From assembly GCA_009773205.1 (NCBI GenBank), contig WPAE01000018.1, forward strand, positions 1-41,742: a DNA stretch of 41,742 nt. Reading direction: 5' to 3'. This DNA comes from Ignavibacteria bacterium (GTDB lineage: Bacteria; Bacteroidota; Ignavibacteria; Ignavibacteriales; Melioribacteraceae). Position numbers and translations under genes: made by a program. Positions within the stretch are counted from its first letter, which is position 1, and each line of letters opens with the position of its first letter. Under the pieces are notes generated by a model. That model was not told the origin of the DNA. It worked only from the letters and a program-made list of their open reading frames with translations, and searched no databases. Below, piece by piece: positions 1,147 to 37,744 of the stretch.

Positions 1147-1815
1147 TTACACAGTTTTCTTTTTTGAAAATGAAATTTTTCTTTCGCTGCCTTTTAGCAA
1201 ACGCGCGATGTTTGCTTTATGAGTATAAACTACAAAGACTGCTAATAAAATTGCAAAGGGAAGAATAGTATGGTAGCCTTGTATATCCACATTAAAAATA
1301 TTTTCCCTTATAACCATTATTACCGGAACAGACACGGCCGCCGCAAGAGAACCTAATGAAATATACCTTGATATCCCAACAACTAAAAAGAAAATGCCCA
1401 AAGCTAAAGCCATATCAATTGTAACAATCATAATTAAAACGCCAAGACCTGTTGCAATTCCTTTTCCACCTTTAAACCCGGCAAATAAAGTCCAAACATG
1501 ACCCATAACTGCAGCAACACCGCAGATGATTTGAACTAAAGTAAAGTCATCAAATGGAGTAACATTGCTAAAGGGGAAACTATCTAAGTAAAGCCGAGCT
1601 ACAACAATCACGGCAATTGCGCCTTTAAGTGCGTCTAACAGAATTGTAAGAATGCCCCACTTCCAGCCAAGTACGCGAAAAACGTTTGAACCACCGGCGT
1701 TGCCGCTGCCGAAATTTCTTATATCTATTCCACGAACTAATTTACTTATAACAATACTTGTTGGAATTGAACCAACTAAATAAGAGAGAATTATTACGAA
1801 AAACAGATTTAGCAT
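1147..1815 (-). CDS. plsY: Acyl-phosphate:glycerol-3-phosphate acyltransferase PlsY
   Basis: This inner-membrane enzyme transfers an acyl chain from acyl-phosphate to glycerol-3-phosphate, making lysophosphatidic acid. The protein is 222 residues with about five hydrophobic spans. The family motifs are present: GSIPTSIVISK near the N-terminus, IRNFGSGNAGGSNVFRVLG with the conserved GSGN segment, and GHVWTLFAGFKGGKGIATGLG with the GGKG acyl-phosphate loop. The C-terminus is basic. An AAGGTAG stretch lies upstream of the ATG. The gene follows ispD after 68 bp and abuts gpsA, so it is probably the third gene of a queA-ispD-plsY-gpsA transcript. The identification is secure. Confidence 0.96.
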   Translation of the reverse strand: MLNLFFVIILSYLVGSIPTSIVISKLVRGIDIRNFGSGNAGGSNVFRVLGWKWGILTILLDALKGAIAVIVVARLYLDSFPFSNVTPFDDFTLVQIICGVAAVMGHVWTLFAGFKGGKGIATGLGVLIMIVTIDMALALGIFFLVVGISRYISLGSLAAAVSVPVIMVIRENIFNVDIQGYHTILPFAILLAVFVVYTHKANIARLLKGSERKISFSKKKTV

Positions 1816-1883
1816 TTTGTATCTACCTTTATGATAAACAAAAAATATGTAAAAGGATTTTTATAAACAATTTGATTTTTCTA

Positions 1884-3860: not shown

Positions 3861-6653
3861 TTATTTCTTCCTAGCCGTTTTTTTAGGAGCAGCTATTTTA
3901 GACTTAACTACTTTTTGTGCAGCATTTTTTGGTGTAGATTTTTTAGCTGCTCTTTCTTCTTTAACAACTGCTTGTGCTGCTGCTAAACGAGCAATAGGAA
4001 CGCGGAATGGTGAACAACTTACGTAGTTCAAACCAATTTGATGACAGAATTCAACAGATTTAGGTTCGCCGCCATGCTCGCCGCAAATACCAATTTTTAA
4101 TTCTGGTCTGGTAGCGCGGCCGCCTTGAACTGCGATTTCCATCAACTTACCAATTGCAGGTCTATCAATTGATTGAAATGGATCTTCCGGTAAAATCTTT
4201 TTATCAAGATATTCTGGTAAGAATCCACCTATATCATCGCGCGAGAAACCGAAGCCCATTTGTGTAAGATCGTTTGTTCCAAAAGAGAAGAATTGAGCTA
4301 CTTCGGCAATCTTATCTGCAGTTAAACAAGCACGAGGAATTTCGATCATTGTACCGGTTAAGTGAGGAATTTTCTTTAATCCAAATTGAGCGGCAACTTC
4401 AGCATGAATTTTATTTACTAAAACAAACTGATGCTTAATTTCGTTTACGTCGCAGGTAACAGGAATCATAATTTCTGGAAAAGGTTTTTTACCTTCAACC
4501 AATAATTCTGCAGTTGCCTGGAAGATTGCTCTAACTTGCATTTCAGTAATTTCGGGATATGTAATGCCAAGACGAACGCCGCGGTGTCCCATCATCGGGT
4601 TGTTTTCGTGCAGCGAATCAGCACGTTCGTTAAGTTCTTCCAAAGAAATATTTAAACTTGCTGCTAATTTCTCTCTCTCTTCAGTTCTTGTAGGAACAAA
4701 TTCGTGCAGCGGCGGATCGAGTGTACGAAATGTTACAGCGTATCCATCCATAGCTTCCAAAGTTCCTTTTACGTCTCTCATAACGTAAGGGAAGAGTTCG
4801 TTAAGAGCAGAAATTCTTTCATTTTGAGTTTTAGAATGGATCATCTTACGCAAAATGAATAAAGGCTCTTCAGAATGTTTTCCGTAGAACATATGTTCTG
4901 TTCTGAATAATCCAATTCCTTCGGCGCCATAAGCGCGTGCACGAAGAGCATCTTCTGGAGTCTCAGCGTTAGTTCTTACTTTTAATTTCTTAACACTATC
5001 ACATAGTTTCATGAATGCAACGAAATCAGCATTATCTTCAGCAGCTTTCTTCATCGGAAGTTCACCTGCATAAACAGCACCTTTAGAACCGTTAAGAGTT
5101 ACCCAATCGCCTTCCTTAAATGTAAACCCGCCTGCATTAAAAGTTCTTTCCTCGTAATTAATTTTTAAACCTCCGGCGCCAACAATACAGCACTTGCCCC
5201 AACCGCGTGCAACTAATGCTGCATGAGATGTCATACCGCCGCGGGCTGTAAGAATAGCTTGTGCAGCACGCATTCCTTCAATGTCTTCAGGATTTGTTTC
5301 TTCGCGTACAAGAATAACTCTTTTGCCTTCTTTAAACCAAGCTACAGCATCTGCTGCATTGAAAACAATCTGACCCGAAGCTCCGCCAGGTCCAGCAGGT
5401 AAACCTTTAATAAATGCTTTAGTATTTAGTTCAACAGCCGGATCTATAATTGGGTGGAGCAGCTCATCCAATTGAGAAGGATGAACGCGCATTACAGCTT
5501 CTTCTTTTGTGATTAATTTTTCTTTATACATATCAAGTGCCATCTTAACAGCCGCTGGTCCGTTTCGCTTGCCTACACGGCATTGTAACATGTAAAGTCT
5601 GCCTTCTTGAATTGTAAATTCAATATCAAGCATATCGTTGTAATGTTTTTCAAGCAAGCGTTGAATCTTGTGTAATTCTTTATAAGTAGAAGGCATTCCA
5701 GTTTCTAATGAAGGAAGGTGAGCAGTATGTTCTGTCTTACCAACTTCGTTAATTGGGTTAGGAGTTCTAATGCCAGCAACAACATCTTCGCCTTGAGCGT
5801 TTGTTAGCCACTCGCCGTAGAAATAATTTTCTCCGGTTGCCGGGTTACGTGTAAACGCAACGCCAGTAGCAGATGTTTCGCCCATGTTACCAAATACCAT
5901 AGATTGAACGTTTACTGCAGTTCCCCAATCATCCGGTATTTCTTCAATTCTTCTATAAGATATAGCACGTTTGCCCATCCAGCTTTGGAACACAGCAGAA
6001 ACTGCGCCCCAAAGTTGATCCATTGGATTTTCGGGAAAAGGTTTGCCTAAAACTTCTTTAACTTTTGCTTTGTATGTTTCGATTAATTCTTTTAAATCAT
6101 CAGCAGATAAATCTGTATCTGCATTAACGCCGCGAGCTTCTTTCATTTTGTGAAGTTCTTTTTCTAATTGCTGGCGAACGCCTTTTCCTTCCGCAGGTTC
6201 AATACCGGCAGCTTTTTCCATAACAACATCGGAGTACATTTGTATTAAGCGGCGGTGTGAATCATAAACGAAACGTGGATTACCTGTTTTAGCAATCAAA
6301 GCTTCGCGGGTTTCGTTGTTCAAACCAACGTTAAGAATTGTTTCCATCATACCGGGCATAGAAGCACGGGAGCCTGAACGAACTGAAACAAGCAATGGAT
6401 TTTTAAGATCGCCAAATTTAGCGCCCATAGCTTTTTCAGTTTTAGCAAGTGCTGCTTTCACTTGTGCTTCCAACTCTTTTGGATATTTTTTCTTGTTCTT
6501 GTAGTATGCTGTACATACTTCTGTTGTAATTGTGAAGCCGGCTGGAACCGGTAAACCAATGTTCACCATCTCGGCAAGGTTTGCACCTTTGCCACCGAGA
6601 AGCTCTTTCATGGTAGCTTTTCCTTCAGCACGTTTTCCACCGAAAAAGTACAC
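3861..6653 (-). CDS. ppdK: Pyruvate, phosphate dikinase with basic C-terminal tail
   Basis: PPDK interconverts pyruvate, ATP and phosphate with PEP, AMP and pyrophosphate. The order is ATP-grasp domain (start to about 350), phosphohistidine swivelling domain with GGMTSHAALVARGWG (catalytic His near residue 474), and PEP-binding TIM barrel ending with the GICGEHGGEP segment and its catalytic Cys. The family usually ends soon after the equivalent of PIARLAAAQA. Here about 35 more residues follow, rich in Lys and Ala and histone-like. The start is uncertain. GTG at 6653 gives MYFFGGK, while a CTG at 6668 would restore the usual KKYVYFFG beginning, and an in-frame TAA directly precedes that CTG. 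The gene is monocistronic. Confidence 0.96.
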   Translation of the reverse strand: MYFFGGKRAEGKATMKELLGGKGANLAEMVNIGLPVPAGFTITTEVCTAYYKNKKKYPKELEAQVKAALAKTEKAMGAKFGDLKNPLLVSVRSGSRASMPGMMETILNVGLNNETREALIAKTGNPRFVYDSHRRLIQMYSDVVMEKAAGIEPAEGKGVRQQLEKELHKMKEARGVNADTDLSADDLKELIETYKAKVKEVLGKPFPENPMDQLWGAVSAVFQSWMGKRAISYRRIEEIPDDWGTAVNVQSMVFGNMGETSATGVAFTRNPATGENYFYGEWLTNAQGEDVVAGIRTPNPINEVGKTEHTAHLPSLETGMPSTYKELHKIQRLLEKHYNDMLDIEFTIQEGRLYMLQCRVGKRNGPAAVKMALDMYKEKLITKEEAVMRVHPSQLDELLHPIIDPAVELNTKAFIKGLPAGPGGASGQIVFNAADAVAWFKEGKRVILVREETNPEDIEGMRAAQAILTARGGMTSHAALVARGWGKCCIVGAGGLKINYEERTFNAGGFTFKEGDWVTLNGSKGAVYAGELPMKKAAEDNADFVAFMKLCDSVKKLKVRTNAETPEDALRARAYGAEGIGLFRTEHMFYGKHSEEPLFILRKMIHSKTQNERISALNELFPYVMRDVKGTLEAMDGYAVTFRTLDPPLHEFVPTRTEEREKLAASLNISLEELNERADSLHENNPMMGHRGVRLGITYPEITEMQVRAIFQATAELLVEGKKPFPEIMIPVTCDVNEIKHQFVLVNKIHAEVAAQFGLKKIPHLTGTMIEIPRACLTADKIAEVAQFFSFGTNDLTQMGFGFSRDDIGGFLPEYLDKKILPEDPFQSIDRPAIGKLMEIAVQGGRATRPELKIGICGEHGGEPKSVEFCHQIGLNYVSCSPFRVPIARLAAAQAVVKEERAAKKSTPKNAAQKVVKSKIAAPKKTARKK

Positions 6654-27874: not shown

Positions 27875-29095
27875 TCAGGTAATTTCTTCCGTTGCACTAA
27901 GCTGTATTTTAAAAGTAGTGCCAGAATTTATAATAGAACTCTTTACAAATATTTTTCCTTTGTGATAATCTTCAATTATCCTTTTCGATAAACTTAATCC
28001 GAGTCCCCAACCCCGTTTTTTAGTGCTGTATCCGGGGCGAAAAATATCTTTTCTTATACCAGACTCAATTCCTTTTCCATTATCAGATATTTCAATTTCA
28101 ACCTTGTTTTTGTTTTTATGAACGCGAAAATGAATTTTACCCTCTTTGTGCTCAATTGAATCAAGTGCATTCTTAATCAAATTTTCGGCAACCCATTCAA
28201 ATAACTCTGTGTTTAAGTTAGCATATGCGTTCTTTTCACCTTCAAGAGTAATAACAACACTTTTCCCAAGGTGAGGAAGCCTTCTCTGGAAATAGCCTAT
28301 AACCCGCTCAATAACTATGTATGGAGTTTCCGTTTTTAATTCTGGTTTAGAACCTATTTTTGAAAATCTCTTCGTTATTTTATTCAAACGATTTAAGTCG
28401 CTCTCTATCTCTTCCGAAGTATCAAGCACTTTATCTGGGCTGTTATAATTCATCTTTAAAATTTCGTTCCAACCCATTAAGCTCGATATTGGCGTACCTA
28501 ATTGATGCGCAGTTTCTTTGCTCATTCCAACCCAAATATTGCTTTGCTCGCTTCTTTTTATGTAGCTAAAACTTGAGTAAGCAATTGCTATAAATAAAAC
28601 AGCAAATATGATCTGCAGAAATGGATAGTATCTGAGTTGCTTAATTATTTCTGAATCCCCGTAATAAATTCTTGAAAGAATTTTTCCGTCCGGCGTTCTT
28701 ACATCTATCGGCAAGTGAGATTTTGCTAGTTCCTTAACTTTGTTTTGAAGCAGAGATTTAAGCTGCTCAGAAGTAATATTTGTGTCGTGTTCAATATTTT
28801 TATATCCGATACCAATTGTTTCAGAAACTTGCTCTTTGTTATCAGTTAAAATAAGAGGGAAGTCAATTCGATTGATAATATTTTCTAGAATGAAGTTGAG
28901 CTCTTCACCTTCAGTTTCCGGTTTTGTAGCAAATTCCAAACCGCTTGCGTAAAGCTGAACTATTTCTTTTTCACTTTGTTGAAGTTTTGAAACTAAATTC
29001 TGAGTATAGTAAAGTGTAGCAAACGCAATAACTGCACCTATAACAACTAATGTGAGTTTAAGATTAAGCGATTTTGGTCCGGATGAGTATTTCAT
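27875..29095 (-). CDS. Sensor histidine kinase (orphan)
   Basis: A membrane histidine kinase of 406 residues. One helix near residues 12-35 and another near 170-190 enclose an extracytoplasmic sensor of about 130 residues. The H-box MSKETAHQLGTPISSL, N-box ENLIKNALDSIE, G1 DNGKGIE and G2 GWGLGLSLSKRII are all intact. No response regulator gene is next to it. The start is the ATG at 29095, preceded by GGAG with a 6-base spacer; the frame reaches back to 29116. The juxtamembrane LYASGL segment resembles one in the unknown membrane protein at 31676-32953. It follows purA, with a 66-base gap, on the same strand. Confidence 0.9.
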   Translation of the reverse strand: MKYSSGPKSLNLKLTLVVIGAVIAFATLYYTQNLVSKLQQSEKEIVQLYASGLEFATKPETEGEELNFILENIINRIDFPLILTDNKEQVSETIGIGYKNIEHDTNITSEQLKSLLQNKVKELAKSHLPIDVRTPDGKILSRIYYGDSEIIKQLRYYPFLQIIFAVLFIAIAYSSFSYIKRSEQSNIWVGMSKETAHQLGTPISSLMGWNEILKMNYNSPDKVLDTSEEIESDLNRLNKITKRFSKIGSKPELKTETPYIVIERVIGYFQRRLPHLGKSVVITLEGEKNAYANLNTELFEWVAENLIKNALDSIEHKEGKIHFRVHKNKNKVEIEISDNGKGIESGIRKDIFRPGYSTKKRGWGLGLSLSKRIIEDYHKGKIFVKSSIINSGTTFKIQLSATEEIT

Positions 29096-29161
29096 TCTTA
29101 GCTCCGAAAAGAACATCTGTTCAAATTTACTAAAGGAGTTCCAATAAATAAATCTTCCTGG

Positions 29162-30507: not shown

Positions 30508-30849
30508 TTAATTTCCAAAACTCTTTATAGCGTCATCAAGTGAAGAAAAATTCTCAAAAATTGTTATGAGTTTGGTAATAACCAAAAGGCTTTCAATTTT
30601 TTCAGTTGCGTTAGCAAGTTTCAAAGTGCCGCCGCCATTTTTCATAGTTGTGTAACCGCTTATAAGCATTCCTAAACCGGAGCTGTTCATAAACTTTGTT
30701 TCAGCAAGATCAATAACTATGTTCTTTTTGTTTTCATCAATGCATTTATGGAGAATATCGCTAAATTCTTGAGCTTCGGTACCTCCCATTACGTTGCCAA
30801 CTAGTTCTATAACAACTGCATTGTACTTCTCAACTTGTTTAATTTTCAT
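30508..30849 (-). CDS. STAS-domain anti-sigma factor antagonist
   Basis: This 113-residue protein is a single STAS domain of the SpoIIAA/RsbV kind. Such proteins bind an RsbW-type kinase when unphosphorylated and are switched off by phosphorylation. The phosphorylation site sits in ETKFMNSSGLGML, around residue 55. It has its own terminator and is read away from the ECF sigma operon starting 225 bases upstream. The matching kinase (35382-35819) and phosphatases (32975-35008, 35821-37500) are encoded in that operon, so it is likely part of the same circuit. Family assignment is firm. Confidence 0.9.
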   Translation of the reverse strand: MKIKQVEKYNAVVIELVGNVMGGTEAQEFSDILHKCIDENKKNIVIDLAETKFMNSSGLGMLISGYTTMKNGGGTLKLANATEKIESLLVITKLITIFENFSSLDDAIKSFGN

Positions 30850-31042
30850 ATTTGCTCCTAGTTTTAAGTTATTTTTATTTCAACAATACTGTAATCTCTG
30901 TTCTAACTTTTTGTTTCAAACGATGGCTATAATCGAGTACAAATATTTATATTGGCGACCAAAGTTATTTAATCTATTAGTAAAAATAAAGTTCTTTTGA
31001 AAGCGAGATAGATATATTTTACAAATCAGTTACTCAGCTTTA

Positions 31043-31070
31043 GGAACTATCAAAACTTAACATCGTCTAA
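31043..31070 (+). promoter_or_regulatory. Candidate ECF-type promoter before the sigma gene
   Basis: GGAAC at 31043-31047 and GTCTAA at 31065-31070 lie 17 bases apart. They resemble the GGAAC and GTCTAA boxes recognised by several RpoE-like ECF sigma factors, so the sigma gene may transcribe itself. The minus-10 element ends just 4 bases before the ATG, so the transcript would be leaderless or start inside the gene. The match comes from reading by eye; the rest of 30850-31042 has no clear box. Confidence 0.45.
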
Positions 31071-31074
31071 AGAA

Positions 31075-31674
31075 ATGGATCTTCCAAAAGAACAAGATCA
31101 GTTTGATTTTAGTGGCGCAAAGACTGAACGTGAAGAGGATTTTGAATTAATCCGCAGTTTCATTAAAGGTGATGAAACCACATTTAGAACTTTGGTCATT
31201 AAACATAAAGAGAAGGTTCGTAATCTAGTATTTTTAACTTTAGGCGATGCCGAATATGTTGATGACATTTCTCAAGATGTTTTTATTAGTGTTTACCATA
31301 AGCTCGCCGAGTTTAGATTCGAATCTAAATTCACAACTTGGTTGTATAGAATTACTGTAAATAAGTGCCGCGATTATTTAAGGAAGAAGCGCGTAAGAAG
31401 CATATTTGTTCCAATTAAGGATTCCGATACCGATTATGGTACCGGTCCATTTTCCGAGAATGTGGATATTCCTAATCTTGTAAGAAGCGCAATCGAAAAA
31501 CTTCCGGAAAGATTACGCATTCCTTTGGTTATGAGAGATATTGAGGGATTCAGTTACAAAGAAATTGCAGATTCTTTAGGAACTGAAGTTGGTACAATTA
31601 AGTCTCGTATTTTTAGAGCCAGAGAAACTTTGAAAGTGATACTTGAACCATATCAAAAGGAATTGAAAGCCTGA
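31075..31674 (+). CDS. ECF-type RNA polymerase sigma factor
   Basis: A sigma-70 family factor of 199 residues with only regions 2 and 4. Region 2 runs from about residue 25 to 105 (DDISQDVFISVYHKLAEF, FTTWLYRITVNKCRDYLRKKR). Region 4 runs from about 135 to 190 (AIEKLPERLRIPLVMRDIEGFSYKEIADSLG, GTIKSRIFRARETL). It heads a six-gene plus-strand operon. The next gene begins one base after its stop, the position where ECF factors usually have their anti-sigma factor. Region 4 spacing and motifs are intact. Confidence 0.93.
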   Translation: MDLPKEQDQFDFSGAKTEREEDFELIRSFIKGDETTFRTLVIKHKEKVRNLVFLTLGDAEYVDDISQDVFISVYHKLAEFRFESKFTTWLYRITVNKCRDYLRKKRVRSIFVPIKDSDTDYGTGPFSENVDIPNLVRSAIEKLPERLRIPLVMRDIEGFSYKEIADSLGTEVGTIKSRIFRARETLKVILEPYQKELKA

Positions 31675-31675
31675 G

Positions 31676-32953
31676 ATGGAAACTCCATCAACTAAAAATC
31701 TTTTTACTGCCGAAAACATTAAAAAGTATTCTCCTTTAGTTCTTCTTTTGTTTTTAACTGTTATGCTTATGTTGTTTTTCAAAAGCAACAAAAAGGGAAT
31801 TTCTGGAATGATTGAAGAAGGAAAGAAGAATTTACTTTCACTTTATACCAGCGGATTGCGTCCTCTGATTTCTGAAACAGAAATCTCTCAAGAAGATTTA
31901 TTCAACTTTGCGCTTTATCAAAGCTTGCCGTTAGACCAAGCAAGAAAAAAGGCGTTGATGCTTTCCGACGGAAACGGGCAAATGGTTTACGAAATAAAGC
32001 CGGCAATCTTTAACAAGAATGCTCGTAATTACGAAACATTCAAAAATTATTTTGAACTTAATGACACCGAGAAGAGGATTGCAGATTCAGTTTTAAACTC
32101 ATATAGAAAAGAAATTTATTCTTGCGTGCTCGTAAATAAAAAAAATGCTTACGCTATAAATCCAAAAATATCTACCGTTAGAAAAGCAATGCTTGCAGAT
32201 TTAGTTTATCTGACTCAAAAAGTTAGCAAAGAAAAAGCTAAAGAGATTTTTCCAAGTTTGGGTGAGTTAAGCCAGAATGAATTAGCTGCGCTAATTAAAA
32301 CAGGCAGAGAACTTCCATCAACACAATACTTACTAATGACTCCGGATACTATTGCTAAAACAGATTTTACTTGGGATGTAAAGAAATTTGATGAACAGTT
32401 AAGAGCGTTTGAAGAAGGAAAAATTGATGCAGAGGATTTTGTTGAAAACCAAGCTTTTAAGTGGAATGAAGATGTAAGTCTGCCACAGCCGCCTTTAACT
32501 TCTTCTAAGCATGATTCTATGTTCGATTATACAATAGACTCTAACAAATACAAAATTTCGTTCGACACAAAGCAGTTAAGCAAAATTGTGAATGATTCGT
32601 TGAAAGTTAATTTAGATAAAGCCGCCAAATATTTGAGATCGATTTCAGTTCGAATTCCTAAACAAAAGGGTAGCCGCTTAAAATATGATAACTTGAAAAT
32701 CATTCCGCCGGTTACTATAACGCCCGATGCAATTTATGATGCAGTTCAAATTACAGAAAGCACTTTGAAAATTGTAGGAGGCATGAACCTTTCCAATATT
32801 ATTGAAGAAGCAGTGAAAAATGATTCAGCTTCCCAAACAATAACGAAGGACTCTGGAAGAAGTAAAAGGTACAAAGAGAAAATGAAAGGTGATAATAAGA
32901 AGCAGAGGGAACTTTATTTAGATAGTTTAAGCACTCGCAAAAGCAGAAGGTAA
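31676..32953 (+). CDS. Unknown single-span membrane protein following the ECF sigma factor
   Basis: I do not recognise a family. The 425-residue protein has a short N-terminal tail (1-18), one membrane helix (about 19-36), then a large mostly helical soluble region. The C-terminal 45 residues are strongly basic (KDSGRSKRYKEKMKGDNKKQ). It has no zinc-binding anti-sigma motif (HXXXCXXC). Just after the membrane span it carries LYTSGLRPLISETE, resembling LYASGLEFATKPETE in the histidine kinase at 27875-29095. It starts one base after the sigma gene stop, suggesting that it controls that sigma factor or senses for it. This role is inferred from position only. Confidence 0.7.
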   Translation: METPSTKNLFTAENIKKYSPLVLLLFLTVMLMLFFKSNKKGISGMIEEGKKNLLSLYTSGLRPLISETEISQEDLFNFALYQSLPLDQARKKALMLSDGNGQMVYEIKPAIFNKNARNYETFKNYFELNDTEKRIADSVLNSYRKEIYSCVLVNKKNAYAINPKISTVRKAMLADLVYLTQKVSKEKAKEIFPSLGELSQNELAALIKTGRELPSTQYLLMTPDTIAKTDFTWDVKKFDEQLRAFEEGKIDAEDFVENQAFKWNEDVSLPQPPLTSSKHDSMFDYTIDSNKYKISFDTKQLSKIVNDSLKVNLDKAAKYLRSISVRIPKQKGSRLKYDNLKIIPPVTITPDAIYDAVQITESTLKIVGGMNLSNIIEEAVKNDSASQTITKDSGRSKRYKEKMKGDNKKQRELYLDSLSTRKSRR

Positions 32954-32974
32954 TTAAACTTGGGTAAACAAATC

Positions 32975-35008
32975 ATGAAATTCAGTGGCATAAGAGGACT
33001 TGAGAATGCAATTATGCTTTCAATTGTTTTGTTTCTGTTCAATCTCATTTTTCCAATTCATGATGCTTTTTTACTTTCGTTAATTCACGAAGGAATTGTA
33101 TTTCTTACAATCTTTTTCTTGTACAATTATTTACAGCAGTCTTTATCAAGAAGACTTGATACGCCGCTATCGCTCGTATTGAATGTTGGAATTTTGGGGT
33201 CGTTACTTTTTTTTGTTCTTTCAATTGCAAATTCTACTTACGAGGCAGATTCTTCAGGCAAAATTCCTCTTAACTTTTTCAATTCGCTTCTTTTTGTACT
33301 AATTAGCTTCCTCTTTATTGCATCAATTGTTTACATATTCACATCCTTGCGCGAGTTGTTTTTCCTTCGGCAGAAGAAAGACCCAAGTGTATATTTCAAT
33401 ACTATGTTGGTTTTCTTTACACTTAGTTTTTTCTCCAATATTTTAATTTTAGCAGATTCAGAACTCGATTATCCTTTCTCGGCTTTTTATGTTGTATCAA
33501 TTGTACTAATTTGTCTCAACTCAATTAGAGTAGCATGGATTGCTTTTTTAACAAAGAAGCAAAAGTATTATTTATTAGGTTTATCAATCGTACTTTCAAT
33601 TGTTTATGGATTAGCTTACTCACTTGCTTTCGACTCTGAAGTAAGCAGTCAGCTTATAAAAGTATTTTCGCCCGGGCTGCGTGCTGTGTTTAGCCTTGTA
33701 ATGATCTACGGCTCAATTTACTTTGGAGTAGTATTTTTTGTTACGCTTTTTCATCTTCCTACAGCCGAAGTTTTTGATAGGAAAGTCCAAGAAGTTGCTT
33801 CGATGATGGATATTACAAAGCTCATTACACAAGTATTTGATTTTAAGGAATTGGCTGATACAATTACTTCGATGACTACTCAAGCATGTAACTCCGATTC
33901 GGCTTGGCTTGTAACTAATACAAAAAATGGAATTGAGCTAAACTCTGTTCACAAAATTGGTTATGTAGATGCAAACGATATAAGCAGCCGCATGCTTGGC
34001 TCCGGAAATGCTTCATTCGAAAATATTGAAGTTATTAATTACGAGTCTTTATTCCGCGATAAGAAATTTGTTGAAAATGTTTTCCATTCGGTTGCTGTAG
34101 CCCCACTCACGATGCATGGAAAAATAAACGGCTACTTGTTTACTGCACGTACAAAAGGTAACTCATTCGATGCAGAAGATCGAAAATCCCTGCAAGCATT
34201 TGCTTATTATGCTGCTGTTGCCTTAGATAATGCAATATTGATTAAAAAATCTATAGAAAAAGAAAGACTTGAAAAAGAGTTTGATGTAGCTCGAGATATT
34301 CAAAGAAAAATTCTTCCTTCTGTTGTTCCTTCTTCACATCAGATAGCAGTCTCGGCGCTTTTTGTTCCAGCTTTTGAGGTTGGAGGAGATTATTACGATT
34401 TCTTTGAGCTTGACGATGAGAATTTGGGTTTTGTAGTTGCAGATGTTTCTGGTAAGGGAATTTCAGCTGCTTTTATTATGGCTGAGGTAAAAGGAATTTT
34501 TGAATCACTTTCCAAGATTATTCAGCGCCCTGCAGAACTTTTAGATAAAGTGAATGGTGTTCTCAAAGGTAACATTGAAAAGAAAAATTTTGTTACAGCC
34601 GTTTATGGAATTATTAATAGGAAAACCGGCATATTAAATATGAGCAGAGCCGGGCATACGCCTTCGCTGCTTTGCAGTAAAGGAACTGTTACAAGACTTC
34701 AACCATCTGGTATTGGATTAGGACTCGATTTCACGAATAATTTTTCAAAATCAATAAAAGAGCTGGAAGTTCAGCTTAATGATGATGATATTATTGTTTG
34801 CTATTCAGATGGAATCCCAGAAGCAAAGAACTCTCTCGGAGAGGATTTTGGATACGAGAAGTTTGAAAAAATTATTTCTGAGAATTGCAGTAAAAATTTG
34901 GATGAAATTTCTAATTTGGTAATGAAAGAATTAAGTTTATTCTCAAAAGACTATCCACAACATGATGATATTACTTTGGTTATGTTTAGATGGAAACAAA
35001 AACAATAA
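32975..35008 (+). CDS. Membrane GAF-SpoIIE (PP2C) serine phosphatase, RsbU-like
   Basis: This 677-residue protein starts with about eight membrane helices (roughly residues 10-255), followed by a GAF domain (about 285-415). A short coiled coil (IEKERLEKEFDVARDIQ) leads to a SpoIIE-type PP2C domain. The metal-binding Asp motifs GGDYYDFF, VVADVSGKG, CYSDGIPEA and QHDDITLVMF are all present, so it should be active. It probably dephosphorylates the STAS antagonists. The nearby STAS gene starts 17 bases after its stop. TTG at 32960 is an alternative start, five codons upstream. The sensing region is unlike any family I can name. Confidence 0.88.
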   Translation: MKFSGIRGLENAIMLSIVLFLFNLIFPIHDAFLLSLIHEGIVFLTIFFLYNYLQQSLSRRLDTPLSLVLNVGILGSLLFFVLSIANSTYEADSSGKIPLNFFNSLLFVLISFLFIASIVYIFTSLRELFFLRQKKDPSVYFNTMLVFFTLSFFSNILILADSELDYPFSAFYVVSIVLICLNSIRVAWIAFLTKKQKYYLLGLSIVLSIVYGLAYSLAFDSEVSSQLIKVFSPGLRAVFSLVMIYGSIYFGVVFFVTLFHLPTAEVFDRKVQEVASMMDITKLITQVFDFKELADTITSMTTQACNSDSAWLVTNTKNGIELNSVHKIGYVDANDISSRMLGSGNASFENIEVINYESLFRDKKFVENVFHSVAVAPLTMHGKINGYLFTARTKGNSFDAEDRKSLQAFAYYAAVALDNAILIKKSIEKERLEKEFDVARDIQRKILPSVVPSSHQIAVSALFVPAFEVGGDYYDFFELDDENLGFVVADVSGKGISAAFIMAEVKGIFESLSKIIQRPAELLDKVNGVLKGNIEKKNFVTAVYGIINRKTGILNMSRAGHTPSLLCSKGTVTRLQPSGIGLGLDFTNNFSKSIKELEVQLNDDDIIVCYSDGIPEAKNSLGEDFGYEKFEKIISENCSKNLDEISNLVMKELSLFSKDYPQHDDITLVMFRWKQKQ

Positions 35009-35025
35009 ATTTAAGGAGATATTTA

Positions 35026-35385
35026 ATGGCTGAATTTAATGCCAACTTACGTGGTGTCGGTTCCGTAAGTGTTATTGATGTTAAAGGATATCTCGATGCT
35101 CACACTGCACCTGAGCTGGAGAATGTTTTCAACCGATTGGTTGATCTGAAACAGTACCAAGTGGTTGTAAACTTTGATGACCTGAAGTATATAAGCAGTG
35201 CAGGACTAGGAGTTTTTATGGCTTATGTAGAAACAATGAGGGAAAATCAAGGCGACATAAAATTCTCTAACATGAAAGAAAACGTTTACAACATTTTTGA
35301 TTTACTCGGATTTCCGATTCTATACGAGTTCTTCAAAGAAGAAAACGAAGCTGTTAAAAAATTTAGTGATCCAGCAAAATCTTGA
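35026..35385 (+). CDS. STAS-domain anti-sigma factor antagonist
   Basis: A 119-residue STAS protein of the RsbV/SpoIIAA kind. The phosphorylatable Ser is in DLKYISSAGLGVFMAY, near residue 57. The start at 35026 is supported by AAGGAG with a 7-base spacer; the open frame runs 12 codons further upstream into the phosphatase gene. Its TGA stop overlaps the TTG start of the RsbW-like kinase gene, so substrate and kinase are translated in a coupled way. It is the second STAS protein of the island; the other is at 30508-30849. Confidence 0.92.
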   Translation: MAEFNANLRGVGSVSVIDVKGYLDAHTAPELENVFNRLVDLKQYQVVVNFDDLKYISSAGLGVFMAYVETMRENQGDIKFSNMKENVYNIFDLLGFPILYEFFKEENEAVKKFSDPAKS

Positions 35386-35819
35386 ATGCACTAAACAAAA
35401 TATTAGAACATCAAATTGTCGTCAAAAGCACTACCGACAATCTTGAAAAAATACGTGAGTTTACCAAAAACGCAGCGTTACATAGCGGTTTTGGCGAAGA
35501 CACAATTGGAAAGATTATTTTAGCTGTTGACGAAGCTTGTACTAACATTATTAAACACGCTTATAAATTTTCTCCTGATGGAATTATATATATTTCTATT
35601 AAATTCTCTGAGGGCAAGTTTGTTGTTTCAATTACAGACGAAGGTGTACAATTCGATCCAACACAAGTACCGGAACCAGATTTACGCGAATACTATAAAC
35701 AGAAACGTGTTGGTGGATTAGGAATGTTTTTGATTAAACGATTGATGGATGAAGTAAACTACAACACAATCTCCGGCAACAAAAATCAAGTAGTTCTAAT
35801 AAAATATTTATCTCAATAA
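35382..35819 (+). CDS. RsbW/SpoIIAB-like serine kinase (anti-sigma factor type)
   Basis: A 145-residue GHKL ATPase without membrane segment or histidine-kinase dimer domain. The N-box is DEACTNIIKHAY, G1 is DEGVQFDP and G2 is GGLGMFLIKRLMDEV, the pattern of RsbW-type kinases, which phosphorylate STAS proteins and often hold a sigma factor. The only in-frame start near the domain is TTG at 35382, whose TTGA overlaps the stop of the STAS gene. No alternative sigma factor of the SigB kind is present, only the ECF factor, so its partner is open. The phosphatase gene begins 1 base after its stop. Confidence 0.9.
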   Translation: MNALNKILEHQIVVKSTTDNLEKIREFTKNAALHSGFGEDTIGKIILAVDEACTNIIKHAYKFSPDGIIYISIKFSEGKFVVSITDEGVQFDPTQVPEPDLREYYKQKRVGGLGMFLIKRLMDEVNYNTISGNKNQVVLIKYLSQ

Positions 35820-35820
35820 A

Positions 35821-37500
35821 ATGAAGCCTACAGATAACAATGCCGCTTTAAGAAATTATTCAGCTCTTGTAGATTTCAGCAACTTAATAAATTCCAGTCT
35901 CGATATTAATTTCACTCTAAATAATATTCTTCTTACCTGCTTCGGAAAATTTCATACTACAAAAGGTTTAATAGCACTGCTTAACAACGAAAGAATTTTT
36001 GAGGTACAAGCTTACAAAGGATTTTCTGAACAAGTTTTGTTATCGTTCCCTTTATTAAAGGCAGATGATTATGATTCAAATGAAAAGTTAGCGGATTTTA
36101 TTACCAGCAATAAATTGCAAGTTTATCAGGAAATAAAGTCTTCGGAAGGATTAAAAGGTTTAATTATTCTTGGCGCTCGTTTAACAAGCAAATCCTACGA
36201 TGATTCGGATATTAGCTTCTTACGCACAATAGTTAATGTTGGCGCAACGGCTATCGAAAATTGTTTGGCTGTTGATAAACTTAAAAATGTTAATCGTAAC
36301 CTGGATTCTAAAGTCAATCAGCTAAGTTCTCTTTTTGATTTGGGAAAAGAGTTTAGCGGAGTTTTGCAGATTGAACAAATATGCAAGCTGCTCGTTTATT
36401 CGCTCATTGGACAAATGCTAGTATCAAAATATGCCGTGGTTTCTTTTTCTGGCGGTGCAATTATTTTTCTAGAAAACCGTTTTGACGAAATACAAATTCG
36501 TGCTGCCTTAAAAGTTTGCAGCAAAGATTGTTTTCAAAAAGTGTATAATAGAAACGAGCTTACTGACGAGCTTAAATCTATAGCTGAAGCTGGTGTTGAT
36601 CTAATTGTACCGATGCAGATTAAAAATGAAACTAAAGGATTAATTCTTCTTGGTAAAAGAAAAAATGAATTGGCTTATTCTAAGTCCGATATAGAATTCG
36701 TCTCATCTGTAGGAAGTCTTGCAATTATCTCTATCGAAAATGCCCGGTTGTTTAAGGAAACTTTAGAGAAGCAGCGTTTAGAAAAGGATTTAGAGACTGC
36801 TCGTAACATTCAAAACAACTTGCTGCCTAAATTTATCCCCACGTTTTCTAATTTTGAAATTGCAGCATTTAACAAATCTGCTAAAATGGTTGGCGGCGAC
36901 TACTACGACATTATAAAACTTGATGAAGACCAAGTACTTATTGCAATTGCCGATGTTTCCGGTAAAGGAGTTCCAGCTGCATTATTGATGGCAAACATAC
37001 AAGCGTTTTTAAAATCAATTTGCAAAATGAAACTGCCATTAGCGGAAGCTACAAATTTGTTAAATGATCTTGTTGCAGAAAATACTTCGATGGGAAGTTT
37101 CATTACTTTCTTTTGGGGAATAATTAATAACGAGAATATGGAATTAACGTTTGTAAACGCAGGACACAACCCGCCGCTCCTTATAAGAAATAATAGAATC
37201 ACTAAGTTGAAAAAGGGAGGAATGATTCTAGGAGTTATGCCAACCGTTGTTCCATATTTATCAGATACAATTAAATTAGAAAGTGGAGATGCCGTAGTTT
37301 TGTTTACAGATGGTATTACAGAAGCTATGAATGTTAAATGGGAAGAATATAGTGACGATAAATTAGAATACTTAACTTTACAGAATAGTGCAATGGATTC
37401 TATACAACTGCTCGATGAGATAAAAACAAGTGTTGAACTATTTACTATCGGTGCGGAGCAATCTGATGACATAACATGTATGATTGTTAAAGTGATATAA
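35821..37500 (+). CDS. Cytosolic dual-GAF SpoIIE (PP2C) serine phosphatase
   Basis: A 559-residue soluble phosphatase. Two GAF-like domains occupy about residues 10-155 and 170-300. A coiled coil (ETLEKQRLEKDLETARNIQ) joins them to a SpoIIE-type PP2C domain (about 330-558). The Asp motifs GGDYYDII, IADVSGKG, LFTDGITEA and QSDDITCMIV are complete. Its linker and catalytic domain resemble those of the membrane phosphatase at 32975-35008, so the island has two phosphatases with different inputs: membrane-bound and cytosolic. It is the last gene of the operon and is followed by a terminator. Confidence 0.9.
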   Translation: MKPTDNNAALRNYSALVDFSNLINSSLDINFTLNNILLTCFGKFHTTKGLIALLNNERIFEVQAYKGFSEQVLLSFPLLKADDYDSNEKLADFITSNKLQVYQEIKSSEGLKGLIILGARLTSKSYDDSDISFLRTIVNVGATAIENCLAVDKLKNVNRNLDSKVNQLSSLFDLGKEFSGVLQIEQICKLLVYSLIGQMLVSKYAVVSFSGGAIIFLENRFDEIQIRAALKVCSKDCFQKVYNRNELTDELKSIAEAGVDLIVPMQIKNETKGLILLGKRKNELAYSKSDIEFVSSVGSLAIISIENARLFKETLEKQRLEKDLETARNIQNNLLPKFIPTFSNFEIAAFNKSAKMVGGDYYDIIKLDEDQVLIAIADVSGKGVPAALLMANIQAFLKSICKMKLPLAEATNLLNDLVAENTSMGSFITFFWGIINNENMELTFVNAGHNPPLLIRNNRITKLKKGGMILGVMPTVVPYLSDTIKLESGDAVVLFTDGITEAMNVKWEEYSDDKLEYLTLQNSAMDSIQLLDEIKTSVELFTIGAEQSDDITCMIVKVI

Positions 37501-37608
37501 AGGTTGCCTATATGATGAGTTGTTATTATTCCATTTACTCTCACAATCCTTTCATTTATGAGCCTACTATAAAAAGGTATTTCGGATGAAAAAATGCTTT
37601 GATTATTG

Positions 37609-37647
37609 CTCAAATTCAAAGTGCAAAAACTCAATTTGAGGCTTTTT
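37609..37647 (+). terminator. Candidate terminator of the sigma/phosphatase operon
   Basis: Arms CTCAAATT (37609-37616) and AATTTGAG (37633-37640) pair perfectly around a 16-base loop, and GCTTTTT follows. It lies about 110 bases past the phosphatase stop. The stem is AT-rich and the loop wide, so it is weaker than the site at 37691-37719. Confidence 0.45.
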
Positions 37648-37690
37648 AGAATAGAATTTTTGCAGCTCTTTTATATACTGAAGATCTTAT

Positions 37691-37719
37691 AAAAAAACCG
37701 GCTTGAGCCGGTTTTTTTT
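37691..37719. terminator. Bidirectional Rho-independent terminator
   Basis: Arms AAAAAAACCGGCT (ending 37703) and AGCCGGTTTTTTT (from 37706) are near-perfect complements around a two-base centre. Because the stem is bounded by A and T runs, it can stop transcripts in both directions. It lies between the converging phosphatase operon and secF, 26 bases past the secF stop codon. Confidence 0.9.
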
Positions 37720-37744
37720 AAAGATGATATGTTACTAATCAAAA

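Follow-up and report, generated by a model that had tools for sequence, protein, structure and literature searches.

A putative ECF sigma factor operon of Ignavibacteriales that joins a partner-switching cassette and an anti-sigma-like membrane protein without its sigma-binding head

A contig of 41,742 nucleotides from an Ignavibacteria bacterium (WPAE01000018.1 of assembly GCA_009773205.1), to which we refer in its whole length as the window, carries six co-directional genes that encode an extracytoplasmic function (ECF) sigma factor, a membrane protein of 425 residues, an RsbU-like phosphatase, a STAS protein, an RsbW-like serine kinase and a second, soluble RsbU-like phosphatase. We consider it probable, at roughly 65%, that this block is a fused operon, with a partner-switching cassette of older origin under the transcriptional control of an autoregulated ECF factor and with the 425-residue protein as the remnant of an anti-sigma factor. 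According to the mechanism that we propose, the ECF factor would read its own promoter, GGAAC-N16-CGTCTA, and one transcript from this promoter would span all six genes. The kinase would phosphorylate the STAS protein, the two RsbU-like phosphatases would reverse this modification, and the main link between the ECF factor and the cassette would be transcriptional. In the families f1 and f3, which are defined below, the sigma-binding head of the anti-sigma factor would have been lost while the sigma pair drew close to the cassette and the overlap of the ECF and anti-sigma genes mostly vanished.

The assembly comprises 476 contigs with a total of 4.14 Mb, and the window is one of these contigs in its full length. 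The ECF gene (31075..31674, + strand) encodes 199 amino acids that match Pfam Sigma70_r4_2 (2.1e-18) and Sigma70_r2 (1e-14). The protein consists of regions 2 and 4 only, a genome-wide search having given no region 3 at this locus, and it exceeds the cut-off of the NCBIfam model sigma70-ECF while staying below those of the equivalog models listed (SigM, RpoE, SigW and others). The following genes lie on the same strand. The gene of the 425-residue protein (31676..32953) encodes a short tail, one membrane helix and an outer domain, and its product has no Pfam match better than E 0.2 and no NCBIfam match at E 0.01. The first phosphatase (32960..35008, 682 amino acids, TTG start; SpoIIE 9e-42, GAF 2.7e-05) has an N-terminal region that is hydrophobic by eye. 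It is followed by the RsbV-like STAS protein (34990..35385, 131 amino acids; STAS 2e-14), the RsbW-like kinase (35382..35819, 145 amino acids, TTG start; HATPase_c_2 1e-30) and the soluble phosphatase (35821..37500, 559 amino acids; SpoIIE 5.2e-43, GAF_3 3.3e-06 at residues 226-307). The Pfam scores of Sigma70_r2, Sigma70_r4_2, STAS, HATPase_c_2 and SpoIIE are all well over their cut-offs, and the junctions from the ECF gene to the last phosphatase gene measure 1, 6, -19, -4 and 1 bases. A second RsbV-like STAS gene (30508..30849, - strand, 113 amino acids; STAS 1.2e-13) stands beside purA, and both are divergent from the block; secF and secD, which were named by eye, converge on it from the opposite side. 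The six co-directional genes and the divergent STAS gene of a preliminary description of this DNA were all recovered at the positions given there. The same description had called the 559-residue phosphatase dual-GAF, and here the SpoIIE domain is upheld and Pfam supports one GAF domain (GAF_3) instead of two. A terminator between the sigma pair and the remaining genes would speak against a single unit; none was found there in a scan of the window. The two + strand terminator-like sites, at 33074 and 34831, are both within the first phosphatase gene, and the window has four such sites in total compared with 5.0 in shuffles, which is no excess.

The membrane protein was matched in 145 of 164 genomes of the order Ignavibacteriales, including 99 of the 109 good ones. 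Its relatives in named records (best 80 of 87) belong, by their titles, to Stygiobacter, Melioribacter, Melioribacteraceae and Ignavibacteriaceae. In the text below, f1 denotes the family of the window (Melioribacteraceae by inference), f2 the Ignavibacteriaceae (also by inference) and f3 a third family. From the 145 genomes, 60 neighbourhoods, one per genome and anchored on the membrane protein, were hand-picked for spread and length of contig, and the order ECF factor, membrane protein, phosphatase, STAS protein, kinase, phosphatase is kept in 54 of them. Among the six exceptions, four (L058, L078, L084 and L088) reach the end of the stretch, L069 is without a match to the first phosphatase, and L062 has no cassette downstream. 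The search for this gene order in related genomes, which the preliminary description had proposed, thus shows that the block is no chance row. A third phosphatase of about 855 residues lies 3′ of the second one in 47 of the 60 neighbourhoods, and the two proteins of this kind that were scanned have PDZ-like, GAF and SpoIIE matches. The window has no such gene at 37501-37744, the 244 bases from the second phosphatase to secF, though its closest relative (L031) has one. A histidine kinase gene (27875-29116 of the window) adjoins purA and was matched in 51 of the 60 neighbourhoods; by eye, the sequence QLYASGL after its membrane helix resembles the SLYTSGL of the 425-residue protein.

The putative promoter of the ECF gene, GGAAC-N16-CGTCTA, lies at 31043..31069 on the + strand, 5 bases before the ATG. 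Near the ECF start, the strict form of this pattern was found in 53 of 69 loci of the order and the relaxed form in all 69; among the loci of other orders, the corresponding counts are 18 and 19 of 20. Off target, the strict form occurs once in 2.83 million strand-bases of the same stretches, so that about 0.0001 matches are expected per region, compared with 0.03 for the relaxed form. Of the 17 cassette loci of other orders that include upstream DNA, none with an ECF gene beside the cassette, 16 gave no promoter match and L207 gave a single weak one at -116; L205 and L212 are without upstream DNA. The promoter accompanies the ECF gene whatever its neighbours are, as autoregulation predicts. 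Moreover, the short distance between the promoter and the ATG within the order predicts that the ECF transcript is leaderless.

The second element of our proposal is the 425-residue protein, which by its sequence appears to be a membrane anti-sigma factor minus its sigma-binding head. Its f2 orthologs have 501-527 residues, including an N-terminal stretch of 85-88 residues before the membrane helix. An anti-sigma-like head precedes the helix in 16 of 16 f2 proteins, in none of 40 f1 proteins and in none of four f3 proteins, and it is also absent from the protein of the window. In f1 and f3, the membrane helix begins at residue ~10-28 and the preceding tail is poorly conserved; in the AlphaFold2 model of the window protein, a helix at 12-37 is followed by a well-modelled domain. 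Among the loci from named records (best 80 of 87), the head is present in 47 and absent in 33, cut proteins included. The DNA of 110-272 bases between the ECF gene and the membrane protein gene in four f3 loci has no head domain inside. The preliminary description had taken this protein to be the membrane partner of the ECF factor, and the membrane helix and the position of the gene directly after the ECF gene (a 1-base gap) agree with this, but an intact partner it is not, as the sigma-binding head is absent.

The identity of the f2 head follows mainly from sequence profiles. The extra domain begins with an LSAYxDxEL-like motif, which we take to be that of anti-sigma domains. Within whole proteins, the Pfam scores of the head are under the cut-offs; when the head domains are isolated, zf-HC2 is found in 19 of 20 and RseA_N in 12 of 20, at E up to 0.1. 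A profile of the head searched against PDB sequences gave RsiW, the anti-sigma factor of SigW, as the best match (E 0.002), then RslA (0.059), with RseA (0.32) and MucA (0.89) lower down amid unrelated proteins. The AlphaFold2 model of an f2 protein is only fair, with a mean predicted local distance difference test score (pLDDT) of 61.7, and it has helices at 4-16, 21-33, 35-54 and 64-74 that are followed by the membrane helix. With the head of this model, Foldseek returned chains of RsiW, MucA, RslA and ChrR at a probability of 0.63-0.99 but at E 0.4 or more. Anti-sigma chains are the sole high-probability Foldseek rows among the matches listed, and they also fill the first six rows of a second aligner, which matched RsiW, MucA, RslA, ChrR, the SigK partner and RseA at Z 4.0-6.8 and with some root-mean-square deviations of 9-12. 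Such Z values are middling for helical domains, and the sequence profile is better evidence than the structure for the identity of the head.

Relocation of the head to another place in the genome of the window was considered and rejected. The head profile gave three matches there, on C132 and C459, each a few hundred bases after another sigma gene, and on C467, where a weak match (E 0.09) follows a sigma match that is itself below the cut-off; none of the three is assignable to this ECF factor, and a very divergent head would escape such a search. The outer domain of the window protein (residues ~61-250) is modelled with pLDDT block means of 77-95. With the whole model of this protein, the outer domain not being searched alone, Foldseek gave no PDB match at E 0.001 or less, and the outer domain may be an undescribed fold.

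The trees of the cassette and of the ECF factor place the headless families together. In the tree built from 1499 columns of the four cassette proteins in 80 taxa, f1 and f3 form one clade with a support of 1.0, and the head is absent throughout this clade. In the ECF tree, the same clade is supported at 0.984 and lies inside a paraphyletic f2, a topology that also fits a single loss of the head. We consider it most likely, on these topologies, that the head was lost once, in the common ancestor of f1 and f3. What remained has been kept under purifying selection: among f1 and f3 pairs with usable synonymous divergence (dS), the ratio of nonsynonymous to synonymous divergence (dN/dS) is 0.035-0.10 for the ECF gene and 0.10-0.29 for the headless membrane protein. 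In all eight f1 loci examined from which the membrane protein gene is missing (L189-L196), the ECF gene and the relaxed promoter are kept, and no copy of the membrane protein was found elsewhere in the genomes of those eight loci.

The distance between the sigma pair and the cassette differs among the same families. The gap from the membrane protein gene to the cassette has a median of 198 bases and a minimum of 124 in f2 (18 loci), a median of 28 in f1 with values up to 487 (40 loci) and a median of 13 in f3 (five loci). Terminator-like sites occur in this gap in 3 of 18 f2, 1 of 40 f1 and 0 of 5 f3 loci. An overlap between the ECF gene and the membrane protein gene is present in 15 of 16 f2 loci (of four bases in 13), in 7 of 40 f1 loci (of four bases in two) and in none of four f3 loci. 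Therefore, according to the domain survey and the gap medians, f1 and f3 are the families that have lost both the head and the spacer. In addition, a sigma-70-like pattern, TTTAC-N18-TAn(n)TT, precedes the first phosphatase in 7 of 20 f2, 3 of 48 f1 and 0 of 5 f3 loci; this pattern was drawn up after the f2 sequences had been viewed and is only a hint. In one locus (L058, G067:C77), an insertion of about 6.3 kb separates the membrane anti-sigma gene from the cassette.

Outside the order, the two units are found apart. From the matches listed in other orders of the class, we hand-picked 20 cassette loci and 20 ECF loci for spread and length of contig. The cassette genes for phosphatase, STAS protein, kinase and phosphatase follow one another in this sequence in 19 of the 20 loci, which were found by the second phosphatase; the twentieth, L219, is cut by the contig end, and L205 and L212 begin inside the first gene. 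None of these 20 stretches gave a match to the ECF gene, to the membrane protein or to the divergent STAS gene. The close ECF relatives of other orders (20 among the matches listed) lie away from the cassette, with a relative of the membrane protein directly downstream in 20 of 20, and 19 of these 20 downstream proteins match the anti-sigma domain profile. As each unit is found alone elsewhere, both are most simply regarded as older than their union, and the ECF pair and the partner-switching cassette would then predate their link. Within the order, two f2 genomes on different branches (G064 and G066) keep the cassette, although the membrane protein is missing from both and neither has an intact ECF gene. 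In G064, a remnant of the ECF gene lies beneath a perfect promoter; in G066, nothing of the ECF gene and no promoter was seen. The G064 locus (L197, G064:C83, ~5083-5500), with its ruined ECF gene under an intact promoter and its cassette kept, could serve as a natural control. The preliminary description had named relatives that keep the phosphatase, STAS and kinase genes without the sigma gene as a sign against a joint island. Such relatives exist outside the order (19 of 20) and in two genomes of the order, and they indicate that the cassette does not need this ECF factor; inside the order, the two units are mostly joined. What is supported of the proposed single unit is its co-directional arrangement, which is kept throughout the order, together with a conserved promoter upstream of the ECF gene.

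The cassette has the conserved positions that are expected of a partner switch. The kinase matches the NCBIfam model RsbW at 6.6e-22, below its cut-off, and its N, G1 and G2 boxes are intact: Glu51 and Asn55 are kept in 87 of 87 relatives, Asp86 in 85, and Gly88, Gly112 and Gly114 in 86. In the 131-residue STAS protein, Ser69 and Ser70 are kept in all 87 relatives, 19 from other orders among them, and in the divergent STAS protein, Ser56 of the NSSG motif is kept in 68 of 68 aligned relatives; we take Ser70 and Ser56 to be the phosphorylatable serines, by analogy with SpoIIAA and RsbV. The Asp positions of the PP2C-type SpoIIE phosphatases, presumably metal-binding and catalytic, are conserved in nearly all relatives of all groups. 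RsbW-type kinases occur in many bacteria that have no SigB/SigF-type factor, and few targets of the kinases in such bacteria are known. In the genome of the window, 12 sigma-factor matches exceed the region-2 cut-off, and only two of them have region 3. Both fit the RpoD models best (293.6 bits each, with RpoS models at 267-279), and the FliA and SigB/F/G models fit far worse (SigB/F/G at 114.5 in one factor where listed). As both are RpoD/RpoS-like, no SigB/SigF-type factor was found by the sigma model search of this assembly, which is estimated to be 99.95% complete. The preliminary remark that RsbW kinases classically control SigB/SigF-type factors and not ECF factors consequently gains weight. 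The cassette could have its output in the ECF factor, in the RpoD/RpoS-like factors or in a target outside the sigma factors. The same genome has a second partner-switching cluster (L100 and L101; G000:C393) with an RsbW-like protein, a STAS protein, a 535-residue phosphatase, two very large SpoIIE proteins (1239 and 1293 residues), a 388-residue phosphatase and a protein closely paralogous to the divergent STAS protein. In f1 genomes, the soluble phosphatase has second copies at other loci (L200, L201 and L202), two of them directly after a STAS gene. Elsewhere in the window (1751-1847), ARAGORN predicts a tRNA-Phe of 97 bases with the anticodon AAA; both the anticodon and the length are unusual for Phe.

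Several observations weigh against the fused operon that we propose. A search for a wider regulon of the strict promoter gave no enrichment over the control outside the ECF locus. In the genome of the window, GGAAC-N15-17-CGTCTA gives three matches, one of which is the promoter described here, compared with five for the reversed control; in 160 genomes of the order, the form with the final A gives 167 matches compared with 165. The reversed pattern is a rough control with other dinucleotides, and weaker sites would be missed by the strict pattern. The tree of the membrane protein joins f2 and f3 at 0.826, does not recover f1 with f3 and has a scattered outgroup; it disagrees, if weakly, with the other two trees, so that two separate losses of the head, in f1 and in f3, are possible. 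In addition, the two f2 genomes with a cassette and no ECF gene are accompanied by two with an ECF gene and no match to the second phosphatase, which indicates that the link is not obligatory in f2. Seven of the 40 f1 loci still have the overlap between the ECF and membrane protein genes, and the three f1 loci with a sigma-70-like site before the cassette allow for a second promoter in some genomes.

Among the other explanations, there is one to which we would give some tentative credit, while thinking it rather unlikely: the short tail of the headless protein in the cytoplasm would still hold the ECF factor back, or this factor would simply be on when made and be controlled by transcription alone. 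The purifying selection on the membrane protein and its position beside the ECF gene agree with this, but a tail of only ~10-28 poorly conserved residues in f1 and f3, and the persistence of the ECF gene and its relaxed promoter in the eight f1 loci without the membrane protein gene, speak against restraint by the tail. It is unlikely, in our judgement, that the anti-sigma factor was swapped. In such a swap, the RsbW-like kinase, under the control of the STAS proteins and the phosphatases, would have become the inhibitor of the ECF factor once the head had gone, and the relay would now set sigma activity. The head is absent from the same families in which the sigma gene lies near the cassette, the kinase has no SigB/SigF-type factor that we could find, and the ECF factor is kept under purifying selection without the head, all as such a swap would have it. 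The co-occurrence of the genes points the same way. In a class sample of 391 genomes, in which three candidates were scored per genome with a cut of 1e-75, 291 genomes had a match to the second phosphatase within this cut; among the genomes listed, and counted by eye, the ECF factor or this phosphatase is matched without the other in 4 of 40 f2 genomes and in 0 of 51 f1 and f3 genomes (Fisher p 0.034, uncorrected for ancestry). This distribution hints at a dependence of the ECF factor on the cassette after the head has been lost, but a promoter common to both would produce it as well, and as only three candidates were scored per genome, the phosphatase was possibly missed in two of the f2 genomes. 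Two observations may speak against the swap: at the 90% level, no fixed change specific to the clade is seen in the kinase (0 of 139 columns), in the ECF factor (0 of 188 columns) or in PurA, in contrast to two each in the STAS protein and both phosphatases, and the kinase gene is kept in other orders without an adjoining ECF gene.

The swap could be extended by recasting the leftover membrane protein as an input part for the adjacent membrane phosphatase, with the phosphatase and STAS relay gating the ECF factor directly; we hold this to be similarly doubtful, if not slightly more so. We regard as quite improbable that the sigma pair and the cassette are neighbours without a common function that were brought into one operon by drift. 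Each unit is found on its own elsewhere, and four f2 genomes among those listed in the class sample show only one of the two, which is what drift would allow; the gene order kept in 54 of 60 neighbourhoods and the tighter spacing in f1 and f3 speak against it. The fused operon with a mainly transcriptional link remains the explanation that we prefer.

Pairs such as SigW-RsiW, RpoE-RseA and AlgU-MucA consist of an ECF factor with a membrane anti-sigma factor. The f2 and other-order pairs resemble them in having an anti-sigma-like domain, a helix and an outer domain, whereas the protein of the window, unlike RsiW, RseA and MucA, is without the sigma-binding domain. The preliminary description had considered the combination of an ECF factor and its membrane partner with a two-input phosphatase relay unusual. 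In the btr locus of Bordetella, which encodes the ECF factor BtrS, the anti-sigma factor BtrA and the proteins BtrU, BtrV and BtrW, an ECF gene is likewise accompanied by genes for a SpoIIE phosphatase, a STAS protein and a serine kinase (PMC7498569). An ECF factor beside RsbU/V/W-like proteins is therefore not unheard of, and what is new is the headless variant near the cassette. The btr locus differs in that BtrA is described as a secreted anti-sigma factor, one phosphatase is present, other genes intervene and the system is tied to type III secretion (PMC7498569). In the window, by contrast, both phosphatase genes belong to a single tightly spaced run, and the membrane anti-sigma factor has no head.

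The RsbU-RsbV-RsbW-SigB system of Bacillus shares with the window the kinase, STAS and phosphatase domains and their conserved catalytic positions (PMC8256260), but the genome of the window has an ECF gene in place of a SigB/SigF-type factor, none of which was found. The RsbU/V/W proteins of Chlamydia are a partner switch without SigB and with two STAS proteins, as in the window, and their proposed target is the main sigma factor (PMC8256260). In the Alphaproteobacteria, EcfG-NepR-PhyR also combines an ECF factor with a partner switch, and it differs from the window in its sigma-mimicking response regulator (PMC8103513). Of the eight window proteins that were scanned, none gave a Pfam match to a PhyR or NepR domain at E up to 1. 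Among the open-access papers searched, we recognised none by title or abstract that deals with this operon or with an ECF anti-sigma factor that lacks its head and is encoded next to a partner switch. Compared with these systems, the new feature is that an ECF factor appears to have parted from its anti-sigma domain and to have drawn close to a partner switch, the cassette itself being independent of the ECF factor in other orders; the block is thus more than a chance island, for another reason than the one first given. The order and its relatives provide a before-and-after set: an intact pair apart from the cassette, a pair that adjoins it with a wide spacer, and a pair whose head is gone and whose spacer has shrunk. 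With this set, the question of what holds an ECF factor that has no anti-sigma domain becomes directly testable, the ECF factor becomes a concrete candidate output for a partner switch, and the locus looks like a natural case of a regulator that changes partners.

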